From NCBI RefSeq assembly GCF_003253485.1, contig NZ_QKTX01000005.1, positions 62,001-126,000 of the forward strand: a DNA stretch of 64,000 nucleotides, given 5' to 3'. Shown one piece after another: positions 42,692 through 59,357 of the stretch; position 1 is the stretch's first letter; each line of letters opens with the position of its first letter. The notes under the pieces are model-generated. The model made no database searches, was not told where the DNA came from, and saw only the letters and a list, made by a program, of their open reading frames with translations. The translations under genes and the position numbers were made by a program. The stretch is from Algoriphagus aquaeductus (GTDB lineage: Bacteria; Bacteroidota; Bacteroidia; Cytophagales; Cyclobacteriaceae).

Positions 42692-43852
42692 CTACTCCCT
42701 CTTCCCTTCGTACATCTCATACTTGAGTAGACGGCAGTCGATGGTTCCGTTCCAGAATTCGATCCTTCGACTGGCTTTTAGACCCACCTTTTTGGCGAGT
42801 TCAAGATTGCCTGTAAAAATATAGCCCCGGTATCCTGCACATTTTTGCTTCATAAAGTCCCCCATGCGCTTGTAGGTCACTTCGAGTTCATCATTTTCAC
42901 CCAATCGCTCTCCATACTCGGGATTAAACATGATCACTCCACGGGGTCTTTCCGGAATTTCGGTTTCGGCAAAATCACACACCTGAAAATCAATCATGTG
43001 CTCCACTCCTGCGTATGCCGCATTTTCCCGGGCAAAAGAAATAGCCTGAAGGGAAATATCGGATGCTACAATGACTACTCCAGGGTCATGGATGACTTTA
43101 TTTTCCAGCTTTTTCTTCTTGGCCAAAAAAGCCTGCGGATCATAGCCGAGGATATACTGAAAAGCATACTCATTTCGATACAAACCCGGATAGCGCTTGG
43201 AGGCCATCAGGGCCGCTTCGATCGCCAAGGTACCCGAACCACACATGGGGTTGATAAATGGTACGCGGGTATTCCACTCGGTGGCATAGATCGTGGCGGC
43301 TGCCAACGCTTCCATCATCGGTGCTTTGCCTGGAATCTTTCGATAGCCATGCTTGGCCAGCGTCTCTCCTGAGGTATTGATGTACACAGAAGCTTGGGTT
43401 TCTTTCCAAAAAACCTGAAAAACCAATCCGATAAAATCCGATCCCGAATCCGGTCTCCGACCTTTGAGTTCACGAAATCGGTCTACGATCGCATCCTTTA
43501 CCTTCACATTCACGATCAGTGGCGTCGTGACCGATTCATTATCAACTACCGAATTCACTGAAAAATACCCATCCACATCCAGGTATTCTTCCCAGGGAAT
43601 GGCTTTAAAGCGGCGGTAAATATCTTCTGCATTTCTCAGGTAAAAAGACTTGATCTCATACAGCACATGGGAAGCGGTACGAAGATGTAGATTGAGGTCC
43701 ATGCAGTCCTCCAAGGAAGCCACAAGTTCTAGTCCGGTTCGGGTAACAGACGTAGGAACAAATCCCAGTTCACGTACTTCCTGCTCCAGATACATGACCG
43801 AACGGTCCTTACACGTAATAAAAACTTTTCCTTTCTGGTTGAAATCAAGCAT
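42692..43852 (-). CDS. THUMP-domain class I RNA methyltransferase (RlmL N-terminal/Trm-like)
   Basis: The 386-aa protein starts with ATG at 43852 (MLDFNQKG; the open frame extends to a TTG at 43858). The N-terminal half is a THUMP domain (VFITCKDRSVMYLEQEVRELGF start). The C-terminal methyltransferase has FINPMCGSGTLAIEAALMA (motif I) and FNPEYGERLG at motif IV, where most homologues have NPPY. The family methylates guanosine N2 in 23S rRNA or tRNA. It stands alone; the stop is 100 bp from the membrane-protein gene. Confidence 0.88.
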   Translation of the reverse strand: MLDFNQKGKVFITCKDRSVMYLEQEVRELGFVPTSVTRTGLELVASLEDCMDLNLHLRTASHVLYEIKSFYLRNAEDIYRRFKAIPWEEYLDVDGYFSVNSVVDNESVTTPLIVNVKVKDAIVDRFRELKGRRPDSGSDFIGLVFQVFWKETQASVYINTSGETLAKHGYRKIPGKAPMMEALAAATIYATEWNTRVPFINPMCGSGTLAIEAALMASKRYPGLYRNEYAFQYILGYDPQAFLAKKKKLENKVIHDPGVVIVASDISLQAISFARENAAYAGVEHMIDFQVCDFAETEIPERPRGVIMFNPEYGERLGENDELEVTYKRMGDFMKQKCAGYRGYIFTGNLELAKKVGLKASRRIEFWNGTIDCRLLKYEMYEGKRE

Positions 43853-44432
43853 GCGCAAAAGTAGTAAACAGAACGATCAAACTCCGAATGTTCAAGAAAT
43901 ACATCAGGGAAATCGGCTTGAATTAACCTTCTGGGAAAAAGGATAAAGATTTTAAAACCATGAAGGAAATTAGGCAATTAAGGATTTCTTGATGAATGGC
44001 GAGGGGAATGAACTTAGAAAAAATCACTTGCTGACTTCTTAAATTCCTTAAGGCACTTAATGGTTTAAAGGAATGATTACCTCAGACTTTCCAATCAAAA
44101 TAGACTCACTCGTCCCATTATTCCAAGCGAAACAAGTTTCAGTCCAGTTGGGCCAAAATTCTTCCTTAGGCAAAAACCAATGGAAAGAAGGTTATTTCCA
44201 TGCTCCTCAATTCTCTTCCTGAACTTACTTGGTGAAAAATCATTCACCCTCTCAATTCAGAAGAATTCATGTATTAAATGCATCAATCAAAATCCGAATT
44301 CCTTGACAAATCCACGCCGTTTATCCGGTTTTCTCTCGAAAAACTCGCAATCGTTTTCGTAAATTGAGTCCAAAGTTTATTGTCCTGACCCGCCTATTTC
44401 CTGAATTTTAGCTGATTCAAAAAAACAAACCC
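43853..44432. other. Gene-free stretch upstream of the DUF1080-Gfo/Idh operon
   Basis: No gene seen in this 580-bp gap. The last 90 bp holds a LacI-type box (44346-44359). ACCCGCC follows both this box and the one at 53671, at different distances. The rest is unremarkable AT-rich DNA. Confidence 0.5.
44346..44359. promoter_or_regulatory. LacI-family operator box 1 (predicted)
   Basis: CGCAATCGTTTTCG, a CG-centred near palindrome 73 bp before the DUF1080 gene. It shares GCAATCG(T/A)TT(C/T)CGTA with the boxes before susC and uxaC. Binding by the linked LacI protein is inferred. Confidence 0.65.
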
Positions 44433-45800
44433 ATGAAATTTAAAATAGCCTATCTAGCCGTTTTGACTTTGTTGTCTCTGACAGTCCAAGCCCAAACCGG
44501 AAATTGGAAAAATCTCTTCAATGGCAAAGACCTGAGTGGTTGGAAAGCTGTTGCGGGCAAAGCCACCTTTGAAGTGAAAGACGGAGTCATTGAAGGCACT
44601 GCGGTTCACGGAACAGGCAATACCTTTTTGGTTACCGACCAAATGTATACCGACTTTATTTTAGAGGTAGATCTCAAGATCAATCATATTTCTTCCAACA
44701 GCGGCATCATGGCCCGAGGACAATTTGATCCGGCGGCCCGAAATGGCCAAGGCTTGGTTTATGGCTATCAGATCGAAGCGGATCCAACGCCTAGAGCCTG
44801 GTCTGGAGGCGTGTATGATGAAGCCCGTAGAGGTTGGTTCTATCCACTTGATTTGAATCCGGCTGCCAAATCTGCCTTCAAAATGGGCGAATGGAATACC
44901 TATCGAATCGAAGCCATCGGAAATACCATCAAAACGTGGATCAATGGGCAGGAAGTCGCCTACTTCGTGGATGACATGGATGCCAAAGGCTTTATAGGGC
45001 TTCAGGTTCACAGCATTCAAAACAAAGAGGATGAAGGCCGAAAAACCTATTTCAGGAATGTTCGAATCCAAACCGAAAACCTAAAACCGATCCCATTCAA
45101 AGGAGATGTGTTCGTGGTCAGCACGCTAAAAAACGAGCTAACTGATCTGGAAAAGAAAAATGGATGGAAACTGCTTTTTGACGGAAAAACCAACAAGGGA
45201 TGGGTGGGTGCCTATAAAAACACCTTCCCGGAAAAAGGCTGGAATATTCAGGACGGAATCCTCACTATTCAAAAATCTGACGGCAGCGAATCCAATTCTT
45301 TTGGAGACATTGTGACGACAGAGATGTTCAGTGCGTTTGATTTGGCCTTCGACTTTAAAATCACAGAAGGTGCAAATAGCGGAGTGAAATATTTTGTAAC
45401 CCTGTCAGAAGGCAACAAAGGTTCCGCGATCGGTCTCGAATACCAGATTCTCGACGATGTCAATCATCCCGATGCCAAGCAAGGAATCGACGGCAACCGA
45501 ACCCTAGCTTCGCTCTATGACCTGATCAAAGCCAATAAGCAACCCCGGTTTGTGAGAAAGCCAGGGGAATGGAATCAAGGCCGAATCGTAGTTTATCCTG
45601 ACAATAGAGTCGAGCACTATATCAACGGTGTCAAAGTGATCGAATATGTAAGAGGCTCCAAAGAATACCGCGACTTGGTAGCCATCAGTAAATATAAAGT
45701 GTGGCCAAATTTCGGAGAAGCCAAAGAAGGGCGTATTCTTCTTCAGGATCATGGAGACGAGGTCAGCTACAAAAACATCAAAATCAAGCCACTGAAGTAA
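44433..45800 (+). CDS. Exported two-domain DUF1080 protein (3-keto-glycoside hydrolase/lyase family)
   Basis: A 455-aa exported protein (signal MKFKIAYLAVLTLLSLTVQAQ). It has two DUF1080/3-keto-disaccharide hydrolase-type domains: residues about 24-215 (WKNLFNGKDLSGWKA, GVIEGTAVHG, SSNSGIMARGQ, RRGWFYPLD, FRNVRIQ) and about 235-455 (WKLLFDGKTNKGWVGA, GILTIQ, GANSGVKYFV, YKNIKIKP). Family members cleave 3-keto-glycosides produced by a dehydrogenase. The Gfo/Idh gene 25 bp downstream is the expected partner that would oxidise the sugar C3. Because both are exported, the pair should act in the periplasm. The gene has a LacI-type box upstream. Confidence 0.88.
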   Translation: MKFKIAYLAVLTLLSLTVQAQTGNWKNLFNGKDLSGWKAVAGKATFEVKDGVIEGTAVHGTGNTFLVTDQMYTDFILEVDLKINHISSNSGIMARGQFDPAARNGQGLVYGYQIEADPTPRAWSGGVYDEARRGWFYPLDLNPAAKSAFKMGEWNTYRIEAIGNTIKTWINGQEVAYFVDDMDAKGFIGLQVHSIQNKEDEGRKTYFRNVRIQTENLKPIPFKGDVFVVSTLKNELTDLEKKNGWKLLFDGKTNKGWVGAYKNTFPEKGWNIQDGILTIQKSDGSESNSFGDIVTTEMFSAFDLAFDFKITEGANSGVKYFVTLSEGNKGSAIGLEYQILDDVNHPDAKQGIDGNRTLASLYDLIKANKQPRFVRKPGEWNQGRIVVYPDNRVEHYINGVKVIEYVRGSKEYRDLVAISKYKVWPNFGEAKEGRILLQDHGDEVSYKNIKIKPLK

Positions 45801-45825
45801 CCAAAAAGGCAAAACTCTTTGAATC

Positions 45826-47175
45826 ATGAGTAAATCCAACAGAAGAGAATTTATCAAAAAAAGTACTGCGGCCACTCTTGGAATTTCAGCCTTGGGAGCC
45901 ATGGGCTTTTCTCCCAAATCCTACGCCCGAATTCTTGGTGCCAATGATCGACTGAACGTAGCCATTGCCGGATTGGGAAGAAGATTGGGTGCTTTCTACG
46001 AGCCTATCGGTCTAAAGACCAGCAATGTCAATCTGCTGTACCTCTGCGACGCCATGCAGTCGCAGATGCCCAGGGCAGCCAAAAACTTTGAAAAATGGAT
46101 CGATTACCAGCCCAAGCAAGAGCAAAATATTTTAAAAGTATTGGATGACAAGGAAGTGGACGTCTTGATCAACGCCACTCCAGACCATTGGCATGCGCCG
46201 GGTACTTGGTTGGCCTTGGAGCGAGGCAAGCATGTCTATGTGGAAAAACCTTGTTCTCATAATCCACGGGAAGGAGAATTGCTGATTGCACTTCAAAAGA
46301 AGTACAATAAGGTGGTGCAAATGGGCAATCAGCAGCGTTCCGCTCCGGAAAGCCGCGAAATCATTTCCGCAATTCATCAAGGTGCGATCGGCAAAGTGTA
46401 CATGGCGAAAGCCTTCTACAGCAATAACCGTGGGGCAGTCCCGATACCTAAAGTTCAAGCCGCCCCGCAGGGACTGGATTGGGAGCTTTTTCAGGGGCCC
46501 GCACCCCGAAAGCCTTATATGCACGATACCTGGGACTACAATTGGCACTGGTACGGCTGGGATTATGGAACGGCCGAAACTGGAAACAATGCGACCCACG
46601 AATTGGATGTCGCACGATGGGCCTTGCAGGTGGACTATCCCAGTGAAGTGATGGTGGTTTCCGGAAAAATGCACTATCCGGAAGACGGCTGGACCATGTA
46701 TGACACCATGGACGCAACCTTCAAATTTGCCAATGGAGGAATCATCCAATGGGAAGGGAAAAGTCGGAACAACTACAAAACTTATGGTTCGGACAGGGGC
46801 ACCATCATCTACGGAACAGAGGGTTCGGTGTATGTAGACCGAGGAGGTTATAAACAATTTGACCGGACTGGAAAAGAAGTGAAGTCCAACCTGGCCAGCA
46901 ACAATGAAGGGGGCACTGTCTTGGGTGGTGGTGGCGACATGAGTACCACTCACGTGGTCAATTTCTTCAATGCAGTAAGAGGCAAGGAAAAGCAAAATTC
47001 CAACATCGAAGAAGGTGCAGTTTCTACCCTACTCTGCCACTTGGCCAATATCAGCAGCCGTACGGGAGAAACCTTGATTTGTGATCCTAAAAATGGGCAC
47101 ATCACCAACTCTTCCAAAGCCATGGCTCTTTGGACCCGTGAATATGAAAAAGGTTGGGAACCTCCCAAAATCTAA
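45826..47175 (+). CDS. Tat-exported Gfo/Idh/MocA family oxidoreductase
   Basis: A 449-aa protein with a Tat signal (NRREFIKKSTAATLGISALG). The NAD(P)-binding segment is LNVAIAGLGRRLGAFYEPIG (residues about 44-62), followed by the catalytic-site motif VEKPCSHNPREGELL with the family EKP. Gfo/Idh proteins exported by Tat fold with bound cofactor. It may oxidise a glycoside at C3, giving the substrate of the DUF1080 protein encoded just upstream. The DPxxK-like region of the C-terminal domain includes GNNATHELDVARWAL. A terminator follows 50 bp later. Confidence 0.9.
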   Translation: MSKSNRREFIKKSTAATLGISALGAMGFSPKSYARILGANDRLNVAIAGLGRRLGAFYEPIGLKTSNVNLLYLCDAMQSQMPRAAKNFEKWIDYQPKQEQNILKVLDDKEVDVLINATPDHWHAPGTWLALERGKHVYVEKPCSHNPREGELLIALQKKYNKVVQMGNQQRSAPESREIISAIHQGAIGKVYMAKAFYSNNRGAVPIPKVQAAPQGLDWELFQGPAPRKPYMHDTWDYNWHWYGWDYGTAETGNNATHELDVARWALQVDYPSEVMVVSGKMHYPEDGWTMYDTMDATFKFANGGIIQWEGKSRNNYKTYGSDRGTIIYGTEGSVYVDRGGYKQFDRTGKEVKSNLASNNEGGTVLGGGGDMSTTHVVNFFNAVRGKEKQNSNIEEGAVSTLLCHLANISSRTGETLICDPKNGHITNSSKAMALWTREYEKGWEPPKI

Positions 47176-47225
47176 CTGAAACTCATAAGGTAAATTTGTT
47201 TGATTGGTTTTCTTAATTCCAACCT

Positions 47226-47260
47226 CACCCGGCTTTGATTCAAGGCCGGGTGTTTTTATT
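47226..47260 (+). terminator. Intrinsic terminator of the DUF1080-Gfo/Idh operon
   Basis: Stem CACCCGGC (47226-47233) / GCCGGGTG (47245-47252), extended by TT/AA, followed by TTTTTATTT. Confidence 0.85.
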
Positions 47261-47600
47261 TAAGTCATCTTTATTGGTGAAATATTTTTATTCAATGGAT
47301 ATACATTATTTATGAAAATCGAACATTCATTGTATATCACGCGCTTCAAACACACGATTATTGAGTTTCTATTAAAACAAAAGATGATTTGTTAATTTTT
47401 TGTTATAGCCACATTTTTCTATTTCATTTTGGATTCATACGCGCAATCGATTCCGTAATTTAAAAATCTACGGGATTGCCCCTACTTTTCCTTTTATCTA
47501 CCTTTTACTACCGAAAGGATCATATTTTATCCTTTTGTCAACATCAAGTATTGAATTCAATTGCAACCAATTCTATCTATTAACAATAACCCCTTAATTT
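47261..47600. other. Long leader region of susC
   Basis: No gene. This stretch is AT-rich and carries the LacI-type box at 47442-47455. TACTTTTC (about 47482) is one mismatch from TAnnTTTG but lacks a good -33. The distance from box to ATG (146 bp) suggests a long untranslated leader. Confidence 0.45.
47442..47455. promoter_or_regulatory. LacI-family operator box 2 (predicted)
   Basis: CGCAATCGATTCCG, symmetrical at 12 of 14 positions around a central CG, upstream of susC. It is the most palindromic of the three boxes. Confidence 0.7.
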
Positions 47601-50600
47601 ATGCGAACAAAGTTTTACACTTACCTATCGGTAGTGTTGATGCTGCTGCTAAGCGCAGGAATTGCGCAAGCACAAGATGCGCAGGTAAGTGGGACCGTAT
47701 TGGATGAAACAGGAATGCCCCTACCTGGGGTATCCATTCTTCTAAAAGGTTCCACTCGTGGCACTACCACTGATTTGGATGGAAAATATTCCATCACCGG
47801 CCCCTCAAGTGGGGTTTTGGTTTTCTCTTTCATAGGGTACAACAGTCTAGAGGAGAACATAGGAAGCCGGACAAAAATTGATGTAACACTATCTCCGGAT
47901 GTATCTAATCTGGAAGAAGTAGTCGTGGTCGGCTATGGTACCCAAAAGAAAAGTCAGCTGACAGGAGCAATTTCCTCTGTGGGGAACAAAGAAATTCAAG
48001 AACTTCCTATTACTGACGCCCGTCAGGCACTCCAAGGACGTGCTGCTGGGGTAGATGTGACTCAGGCAGGTTCCAAGCCTGGTTCTGCACCACAGGTCCG
48101 TATCCGTGGTCGTCGTTCATTCAACGCATCCAATGAGCCTCTCTATGTAGTAGATGGAATCCCAACCGTGGGTGGTTTGGAAGATATCAACCCAAGTGAT
48201 ATCACCTCAATGGAAGTATTGAAAGATGCGTCAGCTACAGCGATCTATGGTTCCAGAGGTTCAAATGGCGTAGTATTGATCACGACCAAAAGAGGAAATG
48301 TAGGAAAAACCGTAGTATCGGTCGATTCCTATTATGGCCTCAACCAAGAATTAGGGCGAATTGAAGTATTTGATGGACCGGCCTTTGCCGAATACAAAAG
48401 AGAATCCCGAAGAGCAACCGGAAGATATCCGGAAGGTCCTGCTACCGCTGAGGCGGATGCCAAAATCTTTGAACCAGTAGAGCTCGAGAGTATTGCTTTG
48501 GGAAGAAGCACAGATTATCCTGCTGGACTTTTACGAATGGGAAATATTCAAAATCACCAAATTGGAGTCTCTGGCGGAAGTGACAAAACAACGTTTTTCG
48601 TTTCCGGAAATTATTTCAAAGACGTTGGGATTATTTACAACCAAGATTTTACCCGTTATACCTTCCGGGTTAACCTTGATCATCAAATAAACAAAAAGAT
48701 CAAAATAGGAACCTCCACTCTCTTTACTTCCAGTTTGAGAAACGGAGAAAATTTCAATCCTATGGGCGGTGCTTTAGCTGAAAACCCACTCGGAAAACCT
48801 TATGATGATAATGGCAACCTCATTTTCTTGCCTACTACTGACGGATTAAGAACCAATCCGTTTGCCGAAATTGTACCCGGCGCTCAAGTGGATGAAACTA
48901 AAAGATACAGAGCATTTACCAGCTTGTATGGTTCTTGGGAAATCACCAAAGGACTAACCTACCGTTTGGTATTCGGACCCGACTTAAACATTAGAAGAAA
49001 CGGCCGTTTTACAGGATCACAGACCAATGCGAGACGCGGTGGACCTCCTACCGGAAGTGTGGATGATCGATTCAACTTCAATTACACCTTGGAGAACATC
49101 GTCACCTACAACAAGACATTAAATTCTGTACACAATTTTAATATTACGGCCCTCCAATCTTTCCAACAAGATCGATTTGAGCAAACTACACTGAGCGTTC
49201 AAGGAATTCCAGCCCCTTCTCAGTTGTTTCACCGATTGGGTGATGCCTCCCAGATAACAGGTGCCAATACCCAATTGGTAGAATGGTCTCTACTCTCCTA
49301 CATGGCAAGGGTAAATTACACCTTTAAAGATAAATTTCTAATTACTGGAACCGTAAGGGCAGATGGAAGCTCCCGATTTGGTGAAAACAACAAATTCGGT
49401 TATTTCCCTTCTGCGGCGATAGGTTGGAATATGCATCAGGAAGAATTCCTGAAAAATTCCAGCAAAGTGGACCAGTTAAAACTTAGAGTAAGCTACGGTT
49501 CAATAGGAAACCAAGCTATTGTGCCTTACCAAACTCAGGCCTTGTTAGGAAGAACCAGCTATGCATGGGATGTAAATACAGCAGCATTTGGATACCGGCC
49601 CAATACGATTGGAAATCCTGATTTAAGATGGGAAACTTCAACCACCTTCAACTCAGGGGTAGACTTTTCCTTTTTCAAAGGACGAGTATTGGGTAGTTTA
49701 GAATATTATGTGACCAATACTTCTGACTTGCTAGCCCCTCAGCCACTTCCCAACTCCACCGGATTTGGAGGATTCACCACCAATATCGGTGAAACTCAAA
49801 ACAGAGGTATCGAATTGTCTCTTTCTACCCTGAATATTGAAAAAGGGAATTTCACATGGTCAACAGATATCATCTTCACGAGAAATCGAGAAAAGATTGT
49901 TTCACTTCCCAATGGGGATGACATTGCCGCAGGAAGATTTATCGGGAAGCCTTTGACAGTTTTCTTTGATCTCAAGAAAATAGGAATCTGGCAGACTTCC
50001 GAGAAGGACATAGCTGCTGGATTTGGGGACAAGCCCGGAGAGATAAAAGTCGAAGACTTTAATGGAGATGGCCGAATAAACTCTCTGGATCGTCAGTTTT
50101 TGGGGTCAGCAGTTCCTGATTTCTCCATGGGTATTACCAACCGGTTTGCTTTCAAAGGATTGGACTTCTCCTTCTTCATATTCACCAGACAAGGATCAAT
50201 GATCAGATCCTTATTCCACACAAGTAATAATAACTTGTTTGGCAGATACAACAATTTGGCAGTAGACTATTGGACGCCAAACAACCCAACCAATGCCTAT
50301 CCAAGACCTAACGAGAACCAAGAATTCCCGAAATACAATTCATCCATGAATTTGTTTGACGGAAGTTTTGTAAAGGTCCGAAACATCAACTTCGGCTATA
50401 CCTTCAGTGATGTTACCTTGAAAAAGATCGGATTCAGCAGTTTGAGATTGTACAGCAGTATCCAAAACCCTTTCATCTGGTCTGAATATCGATCAGTACA
50501 TAAAGGAGTTGATCCAGAGACCTTTATTGATGGCGAACAGGGAGTTGAGGCTGGCGCTATTACTGCAAACGTGACCCCACCAGTGGTTCAGTATACTTTC

Positions 50601-50621
50601 GGAATCAACGTAAAGTTCTAA
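47601..50621 (+). CDS. SusC/RagA-family TonB-linked outer membrane transporter
   Basis: A 1006-aa protein. Signal peptide (MRTKFYTYLSVVLMLLLSAGIAQAQD), carboxypeptidase-D regulatory-like domain (VSGTVLDETGMPLPGVSILLKG, residues about 28-110), a TonB-box-like region (LEEVVVVGYGTQKKSQLTGA), a plug (DARQALQGRAAGVDVTQ, PLYVVDGIP, GSRGSNGVVLITTKRG) and a 22-strand barrel ending in YTFGINVKF. SusC transports oligosaccharides or other large solutes through the outer membrane with a SusD lid. The SusD gene begins 18 bp later. A LacI-type box upstream suggests shared control with the uronate genes. Confidence 0.96.
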   Translation: MRTKFYTYLSVVLMLLLSAGIAQAQDAQVSGTVLDETGMPLPGVSILLKGSTRGTTTDLDGKYSITGPSSGVLVFSFIGYNSLEENIGSRTKIDVTLSPDVSNLEEVVVVGYGTQKKSQLTGAISSVGNKEIQELPITDARQALQGRAAGVDVTQAGSKPGSAPQVRIRGRRSFNASNEPLYVVDGIPTVGGLEDINPSDITSMEVLKDASATAIYGSRGSNGVVLITTKRGNVGKTVVSVDSYYGLNQELGRIEVFDGPAFAEYKRESRRATGRYPEGPATAEADAKIFEPVELESIALGRSTDYPAGLLRMGNIQNHQIGVSGGSDKTTFFVSGNYFKDVGIIYNQDFTRYTFRVNLDHQINKKIKIGTSTLFTSSLRNGENFNPMGGALAENPLGKPYDDNGNLIFLPTTDGLRTNPFAEIVPGAQVDETKRYRAFTSLYGSWEITKGLTYRLVFGPDLNIRRNGRFTGSQTNARRGGPPTGSVDDRFNFNYTLENIVTYNKTLNSVHNFNITALQSFQQDRFEQTTLSVQGIPAPSQLFHRLGDASQITGANTQLVEWSLLSYMARVNYTFKDKFLITGTVRADGSSRFGENNKFGYFPSAAIGWNMHQEEFLKNSSKVDQLKLRVSYGSIGNQAIVPYQTQALLGRTSYAWDVNTAAFGYRPNTIGNPDLRWETSTTFNSGVDFSFFKGRVLGSLEYYVTNTSDLLAPQPLPNSTGFGGFTTNIGETQNRGIELSLSTLNIEKGNFTWSTDIIFTRNREKIVSLPNGDDIAAGRFIGKPLTVFFDLKKIGIWQTSEKDIAAGFGDKPGEIKVEDFNGDGRINSLDRQFLGSAVPDFSMGITNRFAFKGLDFSFFIFTRQGSMIRSLFHTSNNNLFGRYNNLAVDYWTPNNPTNAYPRPNENQEFPKYNSSMNLFDGSFVKVRNINFGYTFSDVTLKKIGFSSLRLYSSIQNPFIWSEYRSVHKGVDPETFIDGEQGVEAGAITANVTPPVVQYTFGINVKF

Positions 50622-50639
50622 TTACAAAGCAATTGAACT

Positions 50640-52316
50640 ATGAAAAAAATATCAAAATTATATCAAATGAAGTCCTGGATTAAATCAGGGGCATTGGCTT
50701 TGACACTCACTTTGACATTTTCGTGTCAAGACCAACTTCAAGAGGATGTTGTTTCCCAGATCGGAAGTAATTATATGAATACTCCAAAGGGACTTGAAGA
50801 TGCAGTAAATGCTGCTTACACTTCCTTAAGGTCTTGGTATGGAACAGAAAGAGGTCATAATTTGACTGAATTCGGAACAGATGTTTACACTAATGGAGCA
50901 GATGGTTCATGGAAATTCATGAATACCTATACCAATCAGTTCGATTCTCAGAATGGACATGTACGCGAACTATGGGACGAATTTTACAGAGGGATTAATA
51001 CCTGTAATGCTGTAATTGACCGCGCACAAAATGTGACAGGGATGGCTGAGAATATCAAGAAGCAACGGGTAGCTGAAGCCAAATTCATAAGAGCCCACAA
51101 TTATTTCATTATGGTGCAGCTATTTGGACCTATTGACTTACAGCTAAATGAGAATATTGTGCCGAATAAAAAAGTAAGCAGGGCTCCTGTCTCTGAAGTT
51201 TATGCAGCCATCATTCGAGACTTGGAATCAGCTATTCCAGATTTGGAAGGCACTAAAGTATCTGTCCAATACGGAAGAGTAACCCGGGCAGCCGCTCAAA
51301 ACCTATTGGCAAAAGTCTACCTGACCAAAGGAACTTCCGAGGCAAAGCAAGCTGATGATTTTGCTAAAGCCGAACCTCTTCTCAAAAGTGTTATCAGCAG
51401 CTATGGATTTACTCTCCTTCCACAGTATAGCCAGATTTATCAGTTTGGTAACGAAAGAAATGATGAAGTCATTTGGTCTATCCAATATACCAGAGATCCA
51501 TTGACCAACGGTGGGGGAAATAATTCCCATGTGTTTTACCTGATGGAGTATGATGTGCAAGCTGGTATGCGAAGAGACACCCAAAATGGGCGTCCTTTCA
51601 AACGATACAGGCTAACGCCCTATGCTTTGAACACGGTATTTAAAGATCGTGAAAATGACAGCAGGTACAAGGCTTCTTTTATAGATGTCTATTTTTCAAA
51701 CAGACCAGGCACTTTCAACACCAGCTTTGATTTGTCTAAACCTACCGTCACTTTTGCTGAGGGTGATACGGCTATTTACATTCCCGGTTTTGAAATGCCA
51801 TTGGCGGACCGAGCTAAGAAAAAATATCAGGTATTGGTTCCTAGCCGTTACGATGAAAGATTATTTCCAGGGTTGAAAAAGCATTTGGATCCAGGAAGAG
51901 CGGATTTGACTCAGTTTGAAGGGGGACGTGACTTTATAGCAATGAGATTGGGAGAAACGTACCTCCTTTTGGCAGAGGCGCAGTTAATGCAGGGAAAAGT
52001 TTCGGAAGCCACGGCCACCATAAATATTTTGAGAAGACGAGCGGCTTTTCCAGGAAAAGCTGATGCCATGGAAATTACTCCTTCTCAAATGAATCTTGAT
52101 TTCTTAATTGAAGAAAGCGCTAGAGAACTGACAGGTGAGCAATTTAGATGGCTTAATTTGAAAAGATGGGGTAAATTAATCGAACGAGTCAGATTACACA
52201 ATGCTCAAGCAGCTCCTAATATCAAAGATTTCCATGTATTGAGACCGATTCCTCAGAATCAAATAGACCGAGCAGAAGGTGGTCCTTCAGGATTCCCTCA
52301 GAACACAGGTTATTAA
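50640..52316 (+). CDS. SusD/RagB-family lipoprotein
   Basis: A 558-aa surface lipoprotein with signal and lipobox LTLTFSC. SusD-type TPR helices carry the family phrases (KGLEDAVNAAYTSLRSWYGTERGHNLTEFGTDVYTNGADG..., RAHNYFIMVQLFGPIDLQL, RAAAQNLLAKVYLTKG) and the C-terminal LRETYLLLAEA-like GETYLLLAEAQL and RELTGEQFRWLNLKRWG. It binds substrate at the cell surface and acts as the lid of the SusC pore. A second start at Met10 is possible. A terminator follows. Confidence 0.95.
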   Translation: MKKISKLYQMKSWIKSGALALTLTLTFSCQDQLQEDVVSQIGSNYMNTPKGLEDAVNAAYTSLRSWYGTERGHNLTEFGTDVYTNGADGSWKFMNTYTNQFDSQNGHVRELWDEFYRGINTCNAVIDRAQNVTGMAENIKKQRVAEAKFIRAHNYFIMVQLFGPIDLQLNENIVPNKKVSRAPVSEVYAAIIRDLESAIPDLEGTKVSVQYGRVTRAAAQNLLAKVYLTKGTSEAKQADDFAKAEPLLKSVISSYGFTLLPQYSQIYQFGNERNDEVIWSIQYTRDPLTNGGGNNSHVFYLMEYDVQAGMRRDTQNGRPFKRYRLTPYALNTVFKDRENDSRYKASFIDVYFSNRPGTFNTSFDLSKPTVTFAEGDTAIYIPGFEMPLADRAKKKYQVLVPSRYDERLFPGLKKHLDPGRADLTQFEGGRDFIAMRLGETYLLLAEAQLMQGKVSEATATINILRRRAAFPGKADAMEITPSQMNLDFLIEESARELTGEQFRWLNLKRWGKLIERVRLHNAQAAPNIKDFHVLRPIPQNQIDRAEGGPSGFPQNTGY

Positions 52317-52335
52317 TTCCATTTCAACTTCTTTT

Positions 52336-52366
52336 AAAGAGCCCTGAAAAATTTCAGGGCTTTTTT
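52336..52366 (+). terminator. Intrinsic terminator of susCD
   Basis: Stem GCCCTGAAA / TTTCAGGGC (52341-52360) followed by TTTTTT. Confidence 0.85.
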
Positions 52367-52502
52367 GCTTGGAGTACCCTATAACGAATCGAAATACCCA
52401 GAAATCGGGTAAAAATCAAAATCGATTCCTTCTGATAGATTCAATCTATCTTCGAAAACCTTTTAGATAAAAGAATACGATTCCCCGCAATCTTCAGCAA
52501 AA

Positions 52503-52535
52503 AAAAGAGGCCCTGATTTTCAGAGCCTTTTTTCA
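52503..52535 (-). terminator. Intrinsic terminator of the lacI-family gene
   Basis: On the minus strand AAAGGCTCTGA/TCAGGGCCTC then TTTTTTT, about 25 bp after the regulator stop. Confidence 0.7.
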
Positions 52536-52558
52536 TAATTAAAAAAACCAAAAACAAG

Positions 52559-53584
52559 TTATATCGCGATCGTAGAGGATCTAATGGTAATCTTAGAAGG
52601 AATACTGATGACCTGATTGGGTAAATCAGGCTGTCTGGGTTTGGTCAGCTTTTTCATCAACAACTTGGCACACTCTTCTCCGATCGAAAAGGCCGGCTGC
52701 GTGATGGTGGTCAATGAAGGATGCAACAAACTCGCAATACTAAGGTTTGAGAAAAAGCTGATAATTTTCAAATCTTGGGGAATCTTCAAGTCTGTACGCT
52801 TTACGGCATGATAGGTTGCCAAAGCAAGCTTCTCTACTGAAGATAAAATTCCATCCGGCCGATTTGGGGACAGCAGCATCTGCCGGATGTCTTCAATATT
52901 CTGCTCTTCTTCCTGGCAGCAAGTGATATTCAATTGTGGTTCGGGAGACAATCCTGCCTGCCTCAAAGCATCCAAATAGCCCCGATAGCGGTCTTTGGTG
53001 ATGGAAAGCTCTTTGGAAAGCATCAAAAAGGCAATTTTTCGGCAACCCTGCTGAATCAGATGCTTGGTGCCTTCAAATCCGCTTTCATAGTCATTGGTTA
53101 TAAACTTGGTCGTGGGAATATCCGGACAGATCCGATCAAAAAACACCAAAGGAAATCCACGCTCATGCAATCGGGTCAGGTGGGAAATATCGCTCGTTTG
53201 ACTGGAAACGGACATAATGATCGCATCTGCCCTTCCATTCATCAGCAGATTGACGATTTTTTTCTCCCGATCCACATCCTCATGCGTACTGTACACCAAC
53301 AGGTGATACCCATATTGCTGGGTGATTTCTTCAATCCCATCTACCACTTTGGAAAAAAAGCTGCTGATCCGTTCTGGGATGACCACTGCGATGGTTTTAC
53401 TTTTGTTTTCCCTTAGGCTTCTGGCAAAGGGATTAGGCTGGTAATTCAGCTTTTCAGCCATGCTGATTACTTTCTTTTTGGTCGCCTCACTGATCTCGTA
53501 GCTGTCATTCAAGGCACGGGATACAGTCGAGGGAGACAACTTCAGCTCAGCGGCGAGTTCTTTTAGATTTACTCCGGCACTCAT
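52559..53584 (-). CDS. LacI-family transcriptional regulator
   Basis: A 341-aa repressor-type regulator. The N-terminal HTH is VNLKELAAELKLSPSTVSRALN (residues 5-26) with hinge helix FARSLREN, followed by a periplasmic-binding-protein-like sensor domain (SKTIAVVIPERISSFFSKVVDGI to the C-terminus). It is divergent from uxaC. A box in the shared 182-bp region (53671-53684) matches those before susC and before the DUF1080 gene. The ligand is probably a uronate or a pathway intermediate; this is inferred from the neighbours. Such regulators usually repress in the absence of inducer. Confidence 0.92.
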   Translation of the reverse strand: MSAGVNLKELAAELKLSPSTVSRALNDSYEISEATKKKVISMAEKLNYQPNPFARSLRENKSKTIAVVIPERISSFFSKVVDGIEEITQQYGYHLLVYSTHEDVDREKKIVNLLMNGRADAIIMSVSSQTSDISHLTRLHERGFPLVFFDRICPDIPTTKFITNDYESGFEGTKHLIQQGCRKIAFLMLSKELSITKDRYRGYLDALRQAGLSPEPQLNITCCQEEEQNIEDIRQMLLSPNRPDGILSSVEKLALATYHAVKRTDLKIPQDLKIISFFSNLSIASLLHPSLTTITQPAFSIGEECAKLLMKKLTKPRQPDLPNQVISIPSKITIRSSTIAI

Positions 53585-53670
53585 AGGTTGTTTGGGTTAA
53601 ATTGCCTTAAAATTTGCTTAAAAATTTTAGGCTATTCAAAATAGTGAAATATTTCCAATTAAATAATATC

Positions 53671-53684
53671 TGCAATCGTTTCCG
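53671..53684. promoter_or_regulatory. LacI-family operator box 3 (predicted)
   Basis: TGCAATCGTTTCCG in the lacI/uxaC divergent region, 82 bp before uxaC and 86 bp before the lacI start. It could serve both genes. It shares GCAATCG with the other two boxes. Confidence 0.65.
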
Positions 53685-53766
53685 TATTTTATTCAGTTTT
53701 ACCCGCCTTTAAAGGATAAATTGAGTACAGATTTAACACCGAAATTACGAGCCCAAACCCTGGCCT

Positions 53767-55206
53767 ATGATTACTGCACAATCCCAAAAAACCTTCCTTT
53801 CCGAAGACTTTTTGCTCAAAAGCGATTACGCGAAAATCCTATATCACGACTTTGCCAAGCACTTACCCATCATTGATTATCACAATCATCTTCCACCTGC
53901 TGAAATTGCCCAAAACAGACGGTTTGAAAATATCAGTAAAATCTGGCTTGCAGGAGACCACTATAAGTGGAGAGCCATGCGTACCCTCGGGGTGAACGAA
54001 AAGTATATTACCGGAACTGCGTCGGATCAGGAAAAATTTGAAAAATGGGCCTATACCCTGCCCTACACCATGAGAAATCCGCTCTATCACTGGAGCCAAA
54101 TGGAACTCAGCCGGTATTTTGGACTGGATGACCTCCTTACGGTAAGCAATGGGGAGGAAGTCTATAAGAAGACTTCTGAGATGTTGCAAGAAGAAGACTT
54201 CCGCGCCAGAGGATTGTTGGAGCGAATGCAAGTAGAAGTAGTATGCACCACAGATGATCCTACCGACACCTTGGAGCATCACGTCAACTATTTCCGCCAA
54301 GACCAATCAGTAGCCATGTATCCGGCATTCCGGCCTGATAAATCATTTGCAATCGAAAACCCCTGGATCTACAAAACTTATTTGAAAAAACTCAGCGAGG
54401 TCGCCGGTATCGAAATCACCTCCTTTGACACCTTGATCGAAGCCCTTTCCAAACGAATCGAATTCTTTCATGCCCATGGTTGCAGACTGTCGGATCATGG
54501 ATTGGAAAACATGTATTACTCCGATGATTCCAGGCTTTCGGCCGATGGAATTTTGCAAAAAGTACTGCGGGGAAACCTGCCCAATGCCGAGGAAATCGAA
54601 TATTTTAAGTTTAAGGTTTTAAAAAAACTCTGCAAGCTGTACCATGCGCATGGTTGGGTGCAGCAGTTTCATTTGGGAGCCTTGAGAAATACCAATACCC
54701 GAATGCTGACCGTATTGGGTCCCGACACGGGATTTGACTCCATTGGAGATTTCAATCAGGCCGTAGCATTGGGCAAATTCCTAAACGAACTGGACTCCAC
54801 TGACCAACTTTCGCAAACCGTAATCTACAACCTCAATCCCCGGGACAATGAGGTCTTTGCGACCATGATCGGCAATTTCAATGATGGTTCGGTCAAAGGT
54901 AAAGTGCAGTTTGGATCGGGATGGTGGTATTTGGATCAAAAGGACGGTATGGAAAAACAAATAAACACGCTTTCCAACATGGGCTTGATCAGTTGTTTTA
55001 TCGGAATGTTGACCGATTCCAGAAGTTTTCTCTCTTTTCCAAGACACGAGTATTTCAGAAGAATCCTCTGTAACCTTTTTGGTCAGGATGTAGAAAACGG
55101 AGAATTGCCTTGGGATGAAAAATGGCTGGGAAAACTCATTTCAGACATCTGCTACCACAATGCCAAAAACTACTTCAACTTTTCCCGGGACAATTACAAC
55201 CTTTAA
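53767..55206 (+). CDS. uxaC: Glucuronate isomerase
   Basis: A 479-aa UxaC. Conserved features are LPIIDYHNHLPP near the N-terminus, IWLAGDHYKWRAMRTLGV, VEVVCTTDDPTDTLEHH, HGCRLSDHG, QFHLGALRNTNTRM, and the C-terminal FGSGWWYLDQKDGMEKQINTLS and SFPRHEYFRRILCNLFG. It converts D-glucuronate to D-fructuronate (and galacturonate to tagaturonate). It starts the three-gene catabolic unit with the SDR gene (2 bp gap) and uxuA, and is divergent from the LacI gene. Confidence 0.97.
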   Translation: MITAQSQKTFLSEDFLLKSDYAKILYHDFAKHLPIIDYHNHLPPAEIAQNRRFENISKIWLAGDHYKWRAMRTLGVNEKYITGTASDQEKFEKWAYTLPYTMRNPLYHWSQMELSRYFGLDDLLTVSNGEEVYKKTSEMLQEEDFRARGLLERMQVEVVCTTDDPTDTLEHHVNYFRQDQSVAMYPAFRPDKSFAIENPWIYKTYLKKLSEVAGIEITSFDTLIEALSKRIEFFHAHGCRLSDHGLENMYYSDDSRLSADGILQKVLRGNLPNAEEIEYFKFKVLKKLCKLYHAHGWVQQFHLGALRNTNTRMLTVLGPDTGFDSIGDFNQAVALGKFLNELDSTDQLSQTVIYNLNPRDNEVFATMIGNFNDGSVKGKVQFGSGWWYLDQKDGMEKQINTLSNMGLISCFIGMLTDSRSFLSFPRHEYFRRILCNLFGQDVENGELPWDEKWLGKLISDICYHNAKNYFNFSRDNYNL

Positions 55207-55208
55207 GC

Positions 55209-56030
55209 ATGAACCCTTCAACTCTATTTTCCCTTGAAGGGAAAAAAATAGCCTTTTCTGGCGCAACGGGAGTATTAGGCCACAGCATGGCCCTTCATCT
55301 TGCCCAAGAAGGGGCAGAAATCCTGATTTTGGGCAGAAGTCCTGAAAAAGTCAGTGACCTTGTCAGCGAGATCAACTCCCGGGGTGGAAAATCCTGGGGA
55401 TATTATGCAGATGTGACAGATGAAGATTCGTTGACCAAAATGGCCGAGGTCATCGAGGCCCAGCATGGAAGCTTGGATATTCTGATCAATTCCGCTGGAG
55501 GAAACATGCCCGGGGCAGTGATCCGGCCAGATCAAAATTTTCTGGATTTGGACACTCAATCGCTGCGTAAAGTAATAGACCTCAACTATCTCGGAACGGT
55601 CCTGCCTATCAAGGTTTTACTTCCCTTAATGCTGAAAAACGGGAAAGGAAATATCCTCAATATCAGCTCCATGGCTGCCACGAGACCGATGACCCGAGTG
55701 ATGGGTTATGCTTCTGCCAAAGCGGCTATCGATAATCTTACCAAGTGGCTTGCGGTGGAATTGGCTCATAAACATGGCCCCCATTTCAGAGTGAATGCAA
55801 TCGCTCCGGGCTTTTTTCTTACCGAACAAAATCGCACCTTATTGACTGAAGCAGACGGGAGTCTGACTCAACGGGGAAATCAAATCATCACCCATACACC
55901 CATGAATCGATTTGGGAAACCGGAAGATCTCTTGGGTGCGTTACAATGGCTTTGCAGTGATGCCTCCGCTTTTGTCACCGGCACGATCGTCGCCGTGGAT
56001 GGCGGATTCAGTGCTTATTCAGGAGTCTAG
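55209..56030 (+). CDS. SDR oxidoreductase, probable D-mannonate oxidoreductase (fructuronate reductase)
   Basis: A 273-aa short-chain dehydrogenase. The cofactor loop is FSGATGVLGHS (residues about 15-25), NSAGG lies near residue 98, and the catalytic Ser and YxxxK are in NISSMAATRPMTRVMGYASAKAAID. The start ATG 55209 lies 2 bp after the uxaC stop; the open frame begins at 55122 but overlaps uxaC. Position between uxaC and uxuA points to reduction of fructuronate to mannonate, as for the SDR-type UxuB of Bacillus subtilis. Cofactor preference cannot be read with confidence. Confidence 0.88.
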   Translation: MNPSTLFSLEGKKIAFSGATGVLGHSMALHLAQEGAEILILGRSPEKVSDLVSEINSRGGKSWGYYADVTDEDSLTKMAEVIEAQHGSLDILINSAGGNMPGAVIRPDQNFLDLDTQSLRKVIDLNYLGTVLPIKVLLPLMLKNGKGNILNISSMAATRPMTRVMGYASAKAAIDNLTKWLAVELAHKHGPHFRVNAIAPGFFLTEQNRTLLTEADGSLTQRGNQIITHTPMNRFGKPEDLLGALQWLCSDASAFVTGTIVAVDGGFSAYSGV

Positions 56031-56167
56031 AAATTGTTTGTCGTTAAGCGTTAACAGTTAATCGACAAAAAGTTCAGTAAACTTTTAACGTTTAACCTTT
56101 AACTTCCAGCCAGCCAATAACAAATAACTCAATAACTAATACACCTATAACCAAAAATACTCCTTCC

Positions 56168-57349
56168 ATGAGCTACAGAATGGAACAAACCATGCGCTGG
56201 TACGGCCCCAAAGATCCGGTAAGTCTCCGTGACATCCGACAGTCCGGCGCAACAGGCATCGTCACTGCACTTCACCACATTCCAAATGGAGAAGTTTGGA
56301 CAAGAGAAGAAATCAAGCTCCGTAAAGACACCGTAGAGGAAGCCGGCCTCACCTGGTCTGTGGTAGAGTCTGTACCCGTCCATGAGCGGATCAAAACCCG
56401 AACGGGAGACTATCTCCAACTGATCGAAAACTACAAGCAAACTCTTCGGAATCTTGCCGCAGAGGGAGTATTCACCGTTTGCTATAACTTCATGCCTATC
56501 TTGGATTGGACCAGGACCAATCTCGAATATGAGCTTGAAAATGGAGCCAAGGCTTTGCTTTACGAACGAAGAGCCGTGGTCGCTTTTGACTTATTTATAC
56601 TCCAAAGACCAGAAGCTTTTCAGGAATACAGCCCGGAAGAAATCGAATCAACTAAGACATACTACGAATCTCTTCCTCCGGATGACCGACGCTTGATCAT
56701 CGACAACATTCTCAAAGGACTTCCCGGTTCTGAGATTGGGTATACCATGGATGAGTTTCGGGCCATGCTCAAAACTTATGAAGGCATCGATGCCAAAAAA
56801 CTTGCCGAACACCTCAGGCTTTTTCTTGATGCAATCACTCCGGTGGCTGAGGAAGTTGGGGTCTGTCTTTGCATTCATCCGGATGATCCTCCTTTTTCTT
56901 TATATGGATTGCCAAGAGTGGTGAGTACGGCTGCGGATGCACGACGAATCCTTAGCGAAACCCCAAGCAAGCATAATGGCTTGACCTTTTGCACAGGCAG
57001 CTATGGAGTGAGACCGGACAATGACCTTCCGGCAATGGTCCGGGAATTTGGAGAGCGGATTCATTTTATTCATTTGAGAAGTACCAAACGAACCCCGGAA
57101 GGGAATTTCTTTGAAGACAACCACCTGGAAGGAGATGTGCCTATGGTCGAAGTCATCCATGAAATCCTGAAATGGCAGGAAAAACGGGGAAAAAGTCTTC
57201 CCATGCGTCCCGACCATGGCCATCAAATGCTGGATGATCTCCACAAAAAAGTCTCCAATCCCGGATATACCGCGATCGGTCGCCTCAAAGGTTTGGCCGA
57301 AATCAGAGGCGTGGAAGAAGCCTTGCTGTGGATGAAAAATAAATCCTGA
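56168..57349 (+). CDS. uxuA: Mannonate dehydratase
   Basis: A 393-aa UxuA, the normal length. Motifs include [77 protein letters not shown] and [12 protein letters not shown]. It dehydrates D-mannonate to 2-keto-3-deoxygluconate. It follows the SDR gene after 137 bp containing a short run of inverted TTAACGTTTAAC-type sequence but no clear promoter. kdgK and kdgA, needed for the next steps, are not in this window. Confidence 0.97.
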
Positions 57350-57358
57350 TTCCCATTC

Positions 57359-57392
57359 AACTTTTCCAAATTCCGAAACTTTGAAAAAATTC
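57359..57392. repeat. Palindromic element, imperfect copy
   Basis: AACTTTTCCAAATTCC...AAACTTTGAAAAAATT, an imperfect version of the palindrome at 57477 and of the one at 2343. It lies 9 bp after the uxuA stop. Confidence 0.5.
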
Positions 57393-57435
57393 AGTCTATA
57401 GACTTTAATAAAGGTTTATTAAAACCAAATCACTT

Positions 57436-57468
57436 CCCCGGTAAATGAAATTTGCCGGGGATTTTTTT
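57436..57468 (+). terminator. Intrinsic terminator of the uxaC-SDR-uxuA operon
   Basis: Stem CCCCGGTAAA / TTTGCCGGGG (57436-57460, one T-G pair) with a short loop, then ATTTTTTT. Confidence 0.85.
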
Positions 57469-57476
57469 GGGTGTTT

Positions 57477-57509
57477 AACTTTTCCAAAGTTCAAAACTTT
57501 GGAAAAGTT
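57477..57509. repeat. Perfect palindromic element
   Basis: Two 15-bp arms, AACTTTTCCAAAGTT and its exact inverse, separated by CAA. It lies between the terminator and the acyl-CoA dehydrogenase gene and is related to 57359-57392 and 2343-2372. Confidence 0.75.
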
Positions 57510-57575
57510 CGTCGGAAAGGAAAAGCTTGAAGTTACTTTCAAGCTATCTTCGCTTGACCACAAAACGAGTGCACC

Positions 57576-59357
57576 ATGCCTTCTTTCTACTCCAAAAAAG
57601 ACTTGTTTTTCCAGCTTTTTGAAAATCAAAACTGCCTTGAACTGACTCAACTCCCCTATTTTTCAGACCATAGTAAAGAGACTTTTACTCTGGTTCTAGA
57701 AGCAGCGGAACAAATCGCCGAAAAATCACTCTATCCGATATTCAGAGAAATGGATCGGCAAGAACCCCAATTGGTAGACGGTAAAATCCGGATTCATCCC
57801 GCAATGGGAACCATCATTCGCAAATTTGGGGAAGACGGTTGGATCAATGCCATTTTTCCATACGAAGAGGGTGGGCAGCAACTGCCTTGGGTCATTCACC
57901 TGGCTGCAGGATTTATTTTTCAGGCCTCCAATTATTCTGCGAGCGTGTTTCCCTTCCTCACCACCGGTGCAGCAAATCTGATCCGGACGTTTGGCTCGAA
58001 AGAACTGAAGGAAAAATTCACGCCAAAGATGTTTGCGGGAAAATGGCAGGGCACCATGGCCCTAACCGAACCGGATGCCGGCAGTTCGCTATCAGACCTG
58101 ACCACTACAGCCACTCCGGCTTCCATTTCAGGAGTGTACCGGATCAAGGGTCAAAAAATATACATTTCCGCAGGTGATCATGATGCCTGCGAAAACATCA
58201 TCCACCTGATGCTCGCCCGTATCGAAGGCGCACCCTCCGGCACGAAAGGAATCTCCCTGTTTGTAGTTCCCAAAATTCGACTCGATGGAGCGCCAAACGA
58301 TGTATTGACCCAAGGTATTTACCATAAAATGGGCTACAAAGGCGCTCCCATTGCCCATCTTATGATGGGAAGTCAGGAGGAATGCGAAGGATATCTCGTC
58401 GGAGAAGCACATCAGGGACTGAAGTATATGTTTCAAATGATGAATGAGGCACGCCTGGGTGTAGGAATGAATGCGGTTGCCATCGCCACGGCTGCTTTCC
58501 AGGCTTCCTTGGCCTATGCCAAAGAACGACCCCAGGGAAGAAAAATCTCTGAAAAAGACCTCAGTAAGCCTCAGGTTCCCATCATCGAGCACTCAGATGT
58601 AAAACGCATGCTCTTGTTTCAAAAAAGTGTGACCGAAGGAGCTTTGGCTTTGCTCATTTATTGCGGAATCCTTTCCGATAAAATAGCTCAGGAGACTTCG
58701 GCAGCGAAAAAGCTAAAAATGGAAGCCCTGCTGGACTTGTTGACCCCGATAGCAAAAAGCTATCCTTCCGAAATGGGCGTGAAGAGCACTTCCATGGCGG
58801 TGCAGGTTTTGGGCGGAGCAGGATACACGACGGATTTTCCGGTAGAGCAGTATTTCCGGGAATCAAGAATCCATCCGATTCATGAGGGTACGACCGGGAT
58901 TCATGGATTGGATCTCTTGGGCAGAAAAGTGTGGCTCCAGGAAGGTTTGGGCTGGAAAACCCTGCAACAGGAAATCCAACATTCACTTGATCAGGTAAAG
59001 TCAATTCAAGAATTGAACGATTTGGGGCATTCTTTTGAGGAGATATTTCTCAAGTTCAACCATTCGGCGGGAGAGTTGCTGTTTAAAAGAAATCTGGGAC
59101 CGGAGAAATTCCTTGCAGATGCTACCCTTTTCTTGGAAGCTAGCGGCATACTTTGCGTGGGTTGGATGTGGATAAAGCAGGCCATTTCGGCTCAAAAGGC
59201 GATCTCCTCCGGAGCTCTAGAGCAAAGCTTTTATTTGGGGAAAATCGAAACGGCCAGGTATTTCATGGAGTACGAATTGGTGAAAATTTTGGGATTGATC
59301 CCAAGATTTCATGCTGCTTCCTATCCTACCGTCACGATGGAAAAAGATTGGTTTTGA
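57576..59357 (+). CDS. Acyl-CoA dehydrogenase family protein
   Basis: A 593-aa flavoprotein of the long acyl-CoA dehydrogenase group (DmdC/AcdA-like, with a C-terminal extension). Domain order is a helical N-domain, the middle beta domain with MALTEPDAGSSLSDLTTTATP, and the C-terminal helical domain with QVLGGAGYTTDFPVEQYFRESRIHPIHEGTTGIHGLDLLGRK, where the Glu region resembles the catalytic base site. It oxidises an acyl-CoA thioester at alpha-beta. No electron-transfer flavoprotein or thiolase genes are adjacent, so the pathway is unclear. Confidence 0.9.
   Translation: MPSFYSKKDLFFQLFENQNCLELTQLPYFSDHSKETFTLVLEAAEQIAEKSLYPIFREMDRQEPQLVDGKIRIHPAMGTIIRKFGEDGWINAIFPYEEGGQQLPWVIHLAAGFIFQASNYSASVFPFLTTGAANLIRTFGSKELKEKFTPKMFAGKWQGTMALTEPDAGSSLSDLTTTATPASISGVYRIKGQKIYISAGDHDACENIIHLMLARIEGAPSGTKGISLFVVPKIRLDGAPNDVLTQGIYHKMGYKGAPIAHLMMGSQEECEGYLVGEAHQGLKYMFQMMNEARLGVGMNAVAIATAAFQASLAYAKERPQGRKISEKDLSKPQVPIIEHSDVKRMLLFQKSVTEGALALLIYCGILSDKIAQETSAAKKLKMEALLDLLTPIAKSYPSEMGVKSTSMAVQVLGGAGYTTDFPVEQYFRESRIHPIHEGTTGIHGLDLLGRKVWLQEGLGWKTLQQEIQHSLDQVKSIQELNDLGHSFEEIFLKFNHSAGELLFKRNLGPEKFLADATLFLEASGILCVGWMWIKQAISAQKAISSGALEQSFYLGKIETARYFMEYELVKILGLIPRFHAASYPTVTMEKDWF

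Follow-up and report, generated by a model that had tools for sequence, protein, structure and literature searches.

A predicted LacI-family regulon linking susCD, a DUF1080-Gfo/Idh pair and glucuronate genes in Algoriphagus aquaeductus

In Algoriphagus aquaeductus (assembly GCF_003253485.1), a gene for a LacI-family regulator is bordered by three transcription units: a DUF1080 gene with a Gfo/Idh-type oxidoreductase gene, a susCD pair, and the glucuronate genes uxaC, SDR oxidoreductase and uxuA. The locus lies in a stretch of 64,000 nucleotides (contig NZ_QKTX01000005.1, positions 62,001 to 126,000), hereafter called the window, to which all coordinates refer unless a contig is named. It raises the question whether one regulator reads similar boxes upstream of all three units and, if so, whether it represses or activates them. 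Comparison with related genomes points to boxes that accompany the three units and the presence of lacI, at a fixed distance from predicted promoter elements. We regard it as highly likely that one local LacI-family regulator governs the three units. The boxes are:

44346..44359, + strand: box 1, CGCAATCGTTTTCG, before the DUF1080-Gfo/Idh unit, ending 73 bp 5' of the DUF1080 open reading frame (ORF)
47442..47455, + strand: box 2, CGCAATCGATTCCG, before susC, ending 145 bp 5' of it
53671..53684, + strand: box 3, TGCAATCGTTTCCG, between the divergent lacI and uxaC, ending 82 bp 5' of uxaC and lying 86 bp from the start side of lacI

An earlier note, made from the window alone, had given these three sequences at 44346, 47442 and 53671; all are exact, and TA directly follows each. 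They share the form CGnAAwCGwTTnCG, then TA. The note also proposed a genome-wide search, and in the genome of A. aquaeductus (4,899,789 bases) both the exact pattern YGCAATCGWTTYCG and the extended pattern YGNAAWCGWTTNCGTA are confined to the three window boxes (3 matches each; 0 for the reversed control of the extended pattern). Since both patterns were derived from the boxes themselves, the weight of evidence rests on the comparison with other genomes, which is the independent test.

Boxes and the presence of lacI

Upstream regions (≤ 300 bp) were scanned with a slightly relaxed box pattern at loci with an orthologous lacI (L120-L166, L182, L183 and the window, mostly Algoriphagus), in every case where both gene and upstream sequence could be located. 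Markov-shuffled upstream regions served as control, and L130, which has no upstream sequence, was left out of the susC count. A box precedes uxaC in 48/48 promoters (shuffles 3/9600), susC in 29/29 (2/5800) and DUF1080 in 33/33 (5/6600). Twelve loci carry a second susC between lacI and the first susCD, its product 34-35% identical to the window SusC, and each of these genes has a box of its own (12/12; shuffles 1/2400). Four loci without susCD beside lacI (L135, L141, L143, L163) have boxes only at uxaC and DUF1080, and lacI itself is faced by a box in the loci examined. Across the pooled boxes the central CG is invariant in 122/122, as are the AA/TT arms, in keeping with the even, CG-centred palindromes of LacI-family sites; the earlier note had described CG-centred palindromes as normal for LacI regulators.

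LacI orthologues (E up to 1e-100) were detected in 41 of the 59 genomes of the genus, that of A. aquaeductus included; the best 80 loci include named contigs of Algoriphagus, Rhodonellum, Aquiflexum, Cecembia and Belliella. Each of the 41 genomes with lacI has two or more occurrences of the extended pattern, which is missing from 14 of the 18 without it; over all 59 genomes it gives 147 strand-hits against 35 for the control. Four genomes have the pattern without lacI. Three of them are incomplete (G003, G071 and G080; 82-84%); in G080 the start of a lacI is visible where a contig ends, and G071 has its site before the DUF1080 gene. In the fourth, G064, the single site lies upstream of pckA. 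Apart from the three incomplete genomes, uxaC is kept in 14 of the 15 genomes that lack lacI. No box was found upstream of uxaC in the 13/13 validly scanned lacI-lacking genomes, where the best score was 9-11/14; two lacI-bearing controls scored 14/14 in the same scan, from which G005 and G080 had been dropped because of a misplaced start and a flank cut by the contig edge. The proposal that one regulator serves uptake, periplasmic cleavage and cytoplasmic breakdown is thus supported by the comparison of lacI-linked boxes in related genomes, including their absence where lacI is absent.

The site type follows the regulator beyond the family. In five of 18 loci with more distant relatives (L167-L181, L184, L185, L195), a CGnAAAACGTTTTC-type box lies 60-112 bp 5' of the regulator's own gene; these five (L167, L168, L169, L170, L176), labelled Chitinophagaceae or Bacteroidetes, encode proteins of 51-55% identity (50% for L168). 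At the rearranged locus of Belliella aquatica (L183), lacI adjoins uxuA, and two boxes occupy the gap between DUF1080 and an SDR gene divergent from it.

Look-alike sites and further candidate targets

Several results count against a regulon of this kind. Specificity is lost when either pattern is relaxed: the bare core YGNAAWCGWTTNCG gave 11 strand-hits at 8 genome places and its reversed control 14; with one mismatch allowed, the extended pattern gave 15, among them the 3 exact matches, and its control 22; and a search of the window with two mismatches returned 7 matches where 6.7 were expected. Moreover, the Algoriphagus genomes are related and are not independent samples. The apparent operon with the inner-membrane TRAP transporter and KDG genes of A. 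aquaeductus yielded no convincing box in the upstream search, and sites resembling the boxes persist in genomes without lacI before fbp and pckA. The first of these results would suit the view that the boxes have no function and arose by chance or by hitch-hiking, the bare core being no more frequent than its control. In three or four promoter types, however, the boxes are conserved although the spacers have diverged, and the box counts and the lack of uxaC boxes in lacI-lacking genomes largely contradict this view, which we consider hardly credible.

The fbp site, CGCAATCGATTACG, lies inside a divergent aspartate-kinase gene, about 137 bp 5' of fbp (C8:190545-190558 in A. aquaeductus; L011, 1501-1514). 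It is identical in 43/43 Algoriphagus genomes, including 6/6 without lacI (L220-L249, L280-L292). Its four inner codons, CGT AAT CGA TTG, never vary, and most neighbouring codons use several synonyms; a coding artefact was dropped as an explanation, since synonymous positions are invariant in all 43 genomes, and the sequence has the look of a genuine DNA site. The pckA site, CGwAATCGATTGAA, lies about 90 bp 5' of pckA (region C7:163985 in A. aquaeductus; L010, L250); in G064 and G022 the palindrome is more complete. At the threshold of 11/12 it was found in 29/31 genomes with lacI, two of these sites (G019, G021) being a different sequence further upstream, and in 6/6 without (L250-L279, L293-L299). 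Because both sites are kept in 6/6 genomes without lacI, fbp and pckA were rejected as targets of the window LacI. They probably belong to a separate LacI-type factor for gluconeogenic genes in the genus, judging from this distribution. In Proteobacteria, Cra and PckR are described as factors for gluconeogenic genes (PMC4052901). The persistence of these sites indicates that another factor is able to recognise a sequence of this kind; this is the main caution in naming the binder. The earlier note had held that its reading would fail if the motif were common in unrelated promoters; this applies to the bare core and to the fbp and pckA look-alikes only.

In L270, TAATTTTG stands about 48 bp downstream of the pckA box (by eye). 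Further box-like sequences were noted. One lies inside the signal-peptide codons of thuA in a ThuA/DUF6807 pair (L207-L210) and may reflect coding conservation, and A. aquaeductus has a one-mismatch site between two ORFs at its thuA/DUF6807 locus (L009). Box-like sites also occur in L204-L206, and in L211, L212 and L217 such a site precedes a Gfo/Idh gene.

The TRAP operon of A. aquaeductus comprises genes for a PfkB-type kinase and a KDPG/KHG aldolase, and dctPQM; with an altronate-dehydratase-type gene beside it, it represents the lower half of the pathway. A 12/14 match 5' of its dctP was rejected as a box because it lies inside the KDPG-aldolase gene, and a nearby one-mismatch site was rejected because it lies inside the altronate-dehydratase gene. 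Among the 41 lacI-bearing genomes, 38 have a dctP match and three do not. Upstream of dctP, 22 of the 38 have a site scoring 13-14/14 and six more one scoring 12, at 65-355 bp and on either strand; in seven, among them A. aquaeductus, the aldolase motif scores best (12) and was judged coding in the other six solely from identical surrounding letters, and the remaining three score 10-11. None of 14 lacI-lacking genomes reaches 13 upstream of dctP, and their single 12 is the aldolase motif; shuffles reached 12 in 30/1100 and 13 in 4/1100. A box-like dctP site thus appears tied to the presence of lacI in the relatives, and the 28 sites need not all be functional. Elsewhere in A. aquaeductus, another susCD pair has a box-like site about 58 bp 5' of the likely susC start (C4:170774-170787; L006; L389, 3441-6779). 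This pair, with no lacI relative within 12 kb around it, could be a fourth target of the regulator.

These results also bear on whether a different factor, for example another LacI-family protein of the genome, reads the cluster boxes. The genome encodes at least two further relatives at 34-38% identity, and the fbp and pckA sites agree with such a reader. Against it, the cluster boxes track the presence of the window lacI, the adjacent lacI is itself faced by a box, and genomes lacking lacI have neither dctP sites nor uxaC boxes, so that we consider a different reader improbable.

Box-to-promoter spacing and mode of action

Downstream of the boxes, the following elements were assigned:

44380..44409, + strand: putative DUF1080 promoter, TTG at 44380-44382 (-33) and TGAATTTT at 44402-44409 (-7, not canonical)
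47476..47506, + strand: putative susC promoter, TTG at 47476-47478 (-33) and TACCTTTT at 47499-47506 (-7)
53717..53724, + strand: putative uxaC -7 element, TAAATTGA

We presume that TTG is the -33 element, and the -7 numbering and the spacing between both elements are likewise assumed. Offsets were counted from the box end in non-redundant promoters (< 85% identity). TTG occurs at +21 in 21/25 DUF1080 and 21/25 susC promoters, and TAnnTT at +44 in 20/25 susC promoters. Promoters of the second susC have TAnnTT at +44 or +45 in 9/11 and TTG at +21 in only 3/11, those of uxaC have TAnnTT at +33 in 32/37, and a looser -7 pattern stands at +43 in 22/25 DUF1080 promoters. No offset exceeded 6 in 300 shuffles per promoter set. 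TAnnTTTG is the promoter motif of Bacteroidetes (PMC6414381). Between sequences, spacer identity is 0.37-0.40 for DUF1080 and susC and 0.45-0.56 for uxaC, and the distance from box to ATG ranges over 73-279 bp (DUF1080), 111-173 bp (susC) and 65-84 bp (uxaC).

The boxes thus lie upstream of the predicted -33/-7 elements, with centres near -62 (DUF1080, susC) and -52 (uxaC) of the predicted promoters, about one helical turn apart; transcription would start near 44414, 47511 and 53729. A fixed offset between box and promoter across diverged spacers suggests activation, as a repressor needs no such phasing, and we lean towards the LacI-family protein being an activator at these promoters. The earlier note had called the boxes operators; they are real and linked to the regulator, but the repression implied by that term is what the fixed upstream position argues against.

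Some of the promoter data speak against activation. The DUF1080 -7 element is non-canonical, and its pattern was picked after viewing the alignment. No recurrent TTG element was found in the 37 uxaC promoters, and their box-to-ATG range is narrow in any case, so that the spacing at uxaC is weaker evidence. On the lacI side there is no fixed promoter element either (best offset TTG 10/37, TAnnTTG 8/37).

The same regulon could instead be under an ordinary repressor that is relieved by uronate, with the boxes acting through DNA bending, looping between boxes or the blocking of another activator, for example a Crp-like protein. Repression is the mode of most LacI-family factors described so far, looping is in principle feasible for three boxes within 9.4 kb, and the promoters considered here are predicted ones. 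Occlusion, however, needs no constant offset, and the boxes keep theirs upstream of -33/-7 in three dissimilar promoter types with diverged spacers; the protein ends at residue 341, near the end of the core domain, with no visible tetramerisation tail (by eye). We consider a repressor the less likely alternative. Activation, which we favour, would fit a local Bacteroidetes LacI-family activator of sus-type uptake, 3-keto glucuronide cleavage and hexuronate catabolism that acts at TAnnTTTG-type promoters through sites in helical phase (near -62 and -52), a full description that we regard as evenly balanced between right and wrong.

Substrate, pathway and known systems

The genes at the locus are as follows:

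44433..45800, + strand: DUF1080 / 3-keto-disaccharide hydrolase family protein with two PF06439 stretches
45826..47175, + strand: Gfo/Idh/MocA oxidoreductase, N-terminus Tat-like by eye (RREFIKKS)
47601..50621, + strand: SusC-type TonB-dependent receptor
50640..52316, + strand: SusD-type lipoprotein
52559..53584, - strand: LacI-family regulator (likely UxuR2 orthologue), PF00356 and a periplasmic-binding-like domain
53767..55206, + strand: uxaC, glucuronate isomerase (NF002794 above cut-off)
55122..56030, + strand: SDR oxidoreductase, presumed fructuronate reductase from its position
56168..57349, + strand: uxuA, mannonate dehydratase (TIGR00695 above cut-off)

The DUF1080 protein matches PF06439 with 303.8 bits (cut-off 26.8) and PDB entry 4jqt_A (E = 2.7e-144), and its N-terminus resembles a signal peptide by eye. 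Its neighbour has the Gfo/Idh fold and is a weak relative of glycoside 3-dehydrogenase models and of 8tdf_A/8tdh_A, scoring 150 bits where the cut-off of the glycoside 3-dehydrogenase model NF058561 is 750. The regulator has the LacI-family architecture, an N-terminal LacI helix-turn-helix with a periplasmic-binding-protein-like core (PF00356 and PF00532/PF13377 above cut-off; CcpA 1rzr_G, E = 1.5e-44). The SDR ORF overlaps uxaC, and its true start may be later. The locus has the susC-susD pair of a polysaccharide utilisation locus, and, PF06439 protein aside, a Pfam scan of the ten proteins at 42692-59357 found no glycoside hydrolase or polysaccharide lyase among them. Like a hexuronate regulon, it has lacI and a site adjoining uxaC and uxuA.

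From the gene families and the shared boxes, we infer as the simplest substrate a glucuronide that is opened by a 3-keto route. The glucuronide would enter via SusCD, be oxidised at C3 by the Gfo/Idh protein and be cleaved by the DUF1080 protein, and the freed glucuronate would be used via UxaC, the SDR protein and UxuA. The LacI protein encoded at 52559-53584 is predicted to bind CGnAAwCGwTTnCG-TA before the three units, and thereby to control periplasmic oxidoreductive cleavage (DUF1080-Gfo/Idh), outer-membrane uptake (susCD) and the conversion of glucuronate to 2-keto-3-deoxygluconate (KDG; uxaC-SDR-uxuA); box 3 would also serve lacI itself. A glucuronate-derived molecule may be the effector, and control would be mainly activation from about -62 (DUF1080, susC) and about -52 (uxaC). 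As a whole, this explanation, comprising regulon, binder, effector, mainly activation and a glucuronide substrate, is in our judgement likely.

Independently of the boxes, the oxidoreductase is linked to glucuronate use by its position. In 6/6 lacI-lacking genomes whose upstream flank was examined (G002, G022, G064, G067, G068, G069), a Gfo/Idh gene lies directly 5' of uxaC in the same direction, and the enzyme thus goes with glucuronate catabolism even without the regulator. This arrangement (L373, L381, L382, L384, L385, L386) resembles a rewiring into one operon.

DUF1080 proteins include 3-ketotrehalose hydrolase and proposed 3-ketoglycoside hydrolases (PMC9007349). The pathway described there (BT2157-type) likewise has a PF06439 protein beside a Gfo/Idh protein, both with export-like N-termini; here the pair is linked to glucuronate catabolism, and the oxidoreductase stays far below the dehydrogenase cut-off given above. 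The wiring of susCD and the DUF1080-Gfo/Idh pair to glucuronate catabolism predicts glucuronides as the substrate class of an oxidoreductive cleavage pair, and the regulon also predicts a mode of action, activation.

Regulators that resemble the proposed one are known. The LacI-family AraQ/MalR1 and CcpA also have helically spaced sites upstream of -35 that are read as activation (PMC6882875), but they act globally in Actinobacteria and Firmicutes, and their sites and promoters differ. PMC12125979 concerns an AraC-type XylR. In Bacteroides, UxuR, UxaR and KdgR are LacI-family factors of glucuronate, galacturonate and KDG catabolism (PMC3878776, PMC4052901); the passages concerned mention no susCD or DUF1080 pair with UxuR, and the likeness is one of description only.

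The closest system is UxuR2, a LacI-family factor that Leyn et al. 2017 (PMC5507952) predicted to control both hexuronate loci in A. marincola HL-49. It shares with the present regulator the family, the hexuronate loci, the genus and a GH109 (Gfo/Idh-type) gene, and at the HL-49 locus (L150, L079) we found a lacI product 73% identical to that of the window, the same gene order and boxes at all three promoters, as well as a box-like site 5' of dctP in the TRAP genes (G035). From this synteny, the window LacI is likely the UxuR2 orthologue. The section of PMC5507952 on this regulon mentions neither susCD nor DUF1080, and no sites or mode of action are given in it; for HL-49 the TRAP transporter is stated to be under the same site. 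With box-like dctP sites in 28/38 lacI-bearing genomes and none convincing in A. aquaeductus, the factor looks orthologous and the regulon here smaller. Membership of susCD and DUF1080, a test across the genus and promoter phasing were not found in a literature search on LacI activators and this regulon that covered neither supplements nor most subscription papers. Since UxuR2 was already predicted in a congener, and UxuR, UxaR and KdgR of Bacteroides are LacI-family factors, the regulon is of a described kind. New in this analysis are the membership of susCD and DUF1080, the test across the genus and the phasing at the promoters; it confirms and extends, for the genus as a whole, a prediction made in a single species, with an unusual hint of LacI-family activation.

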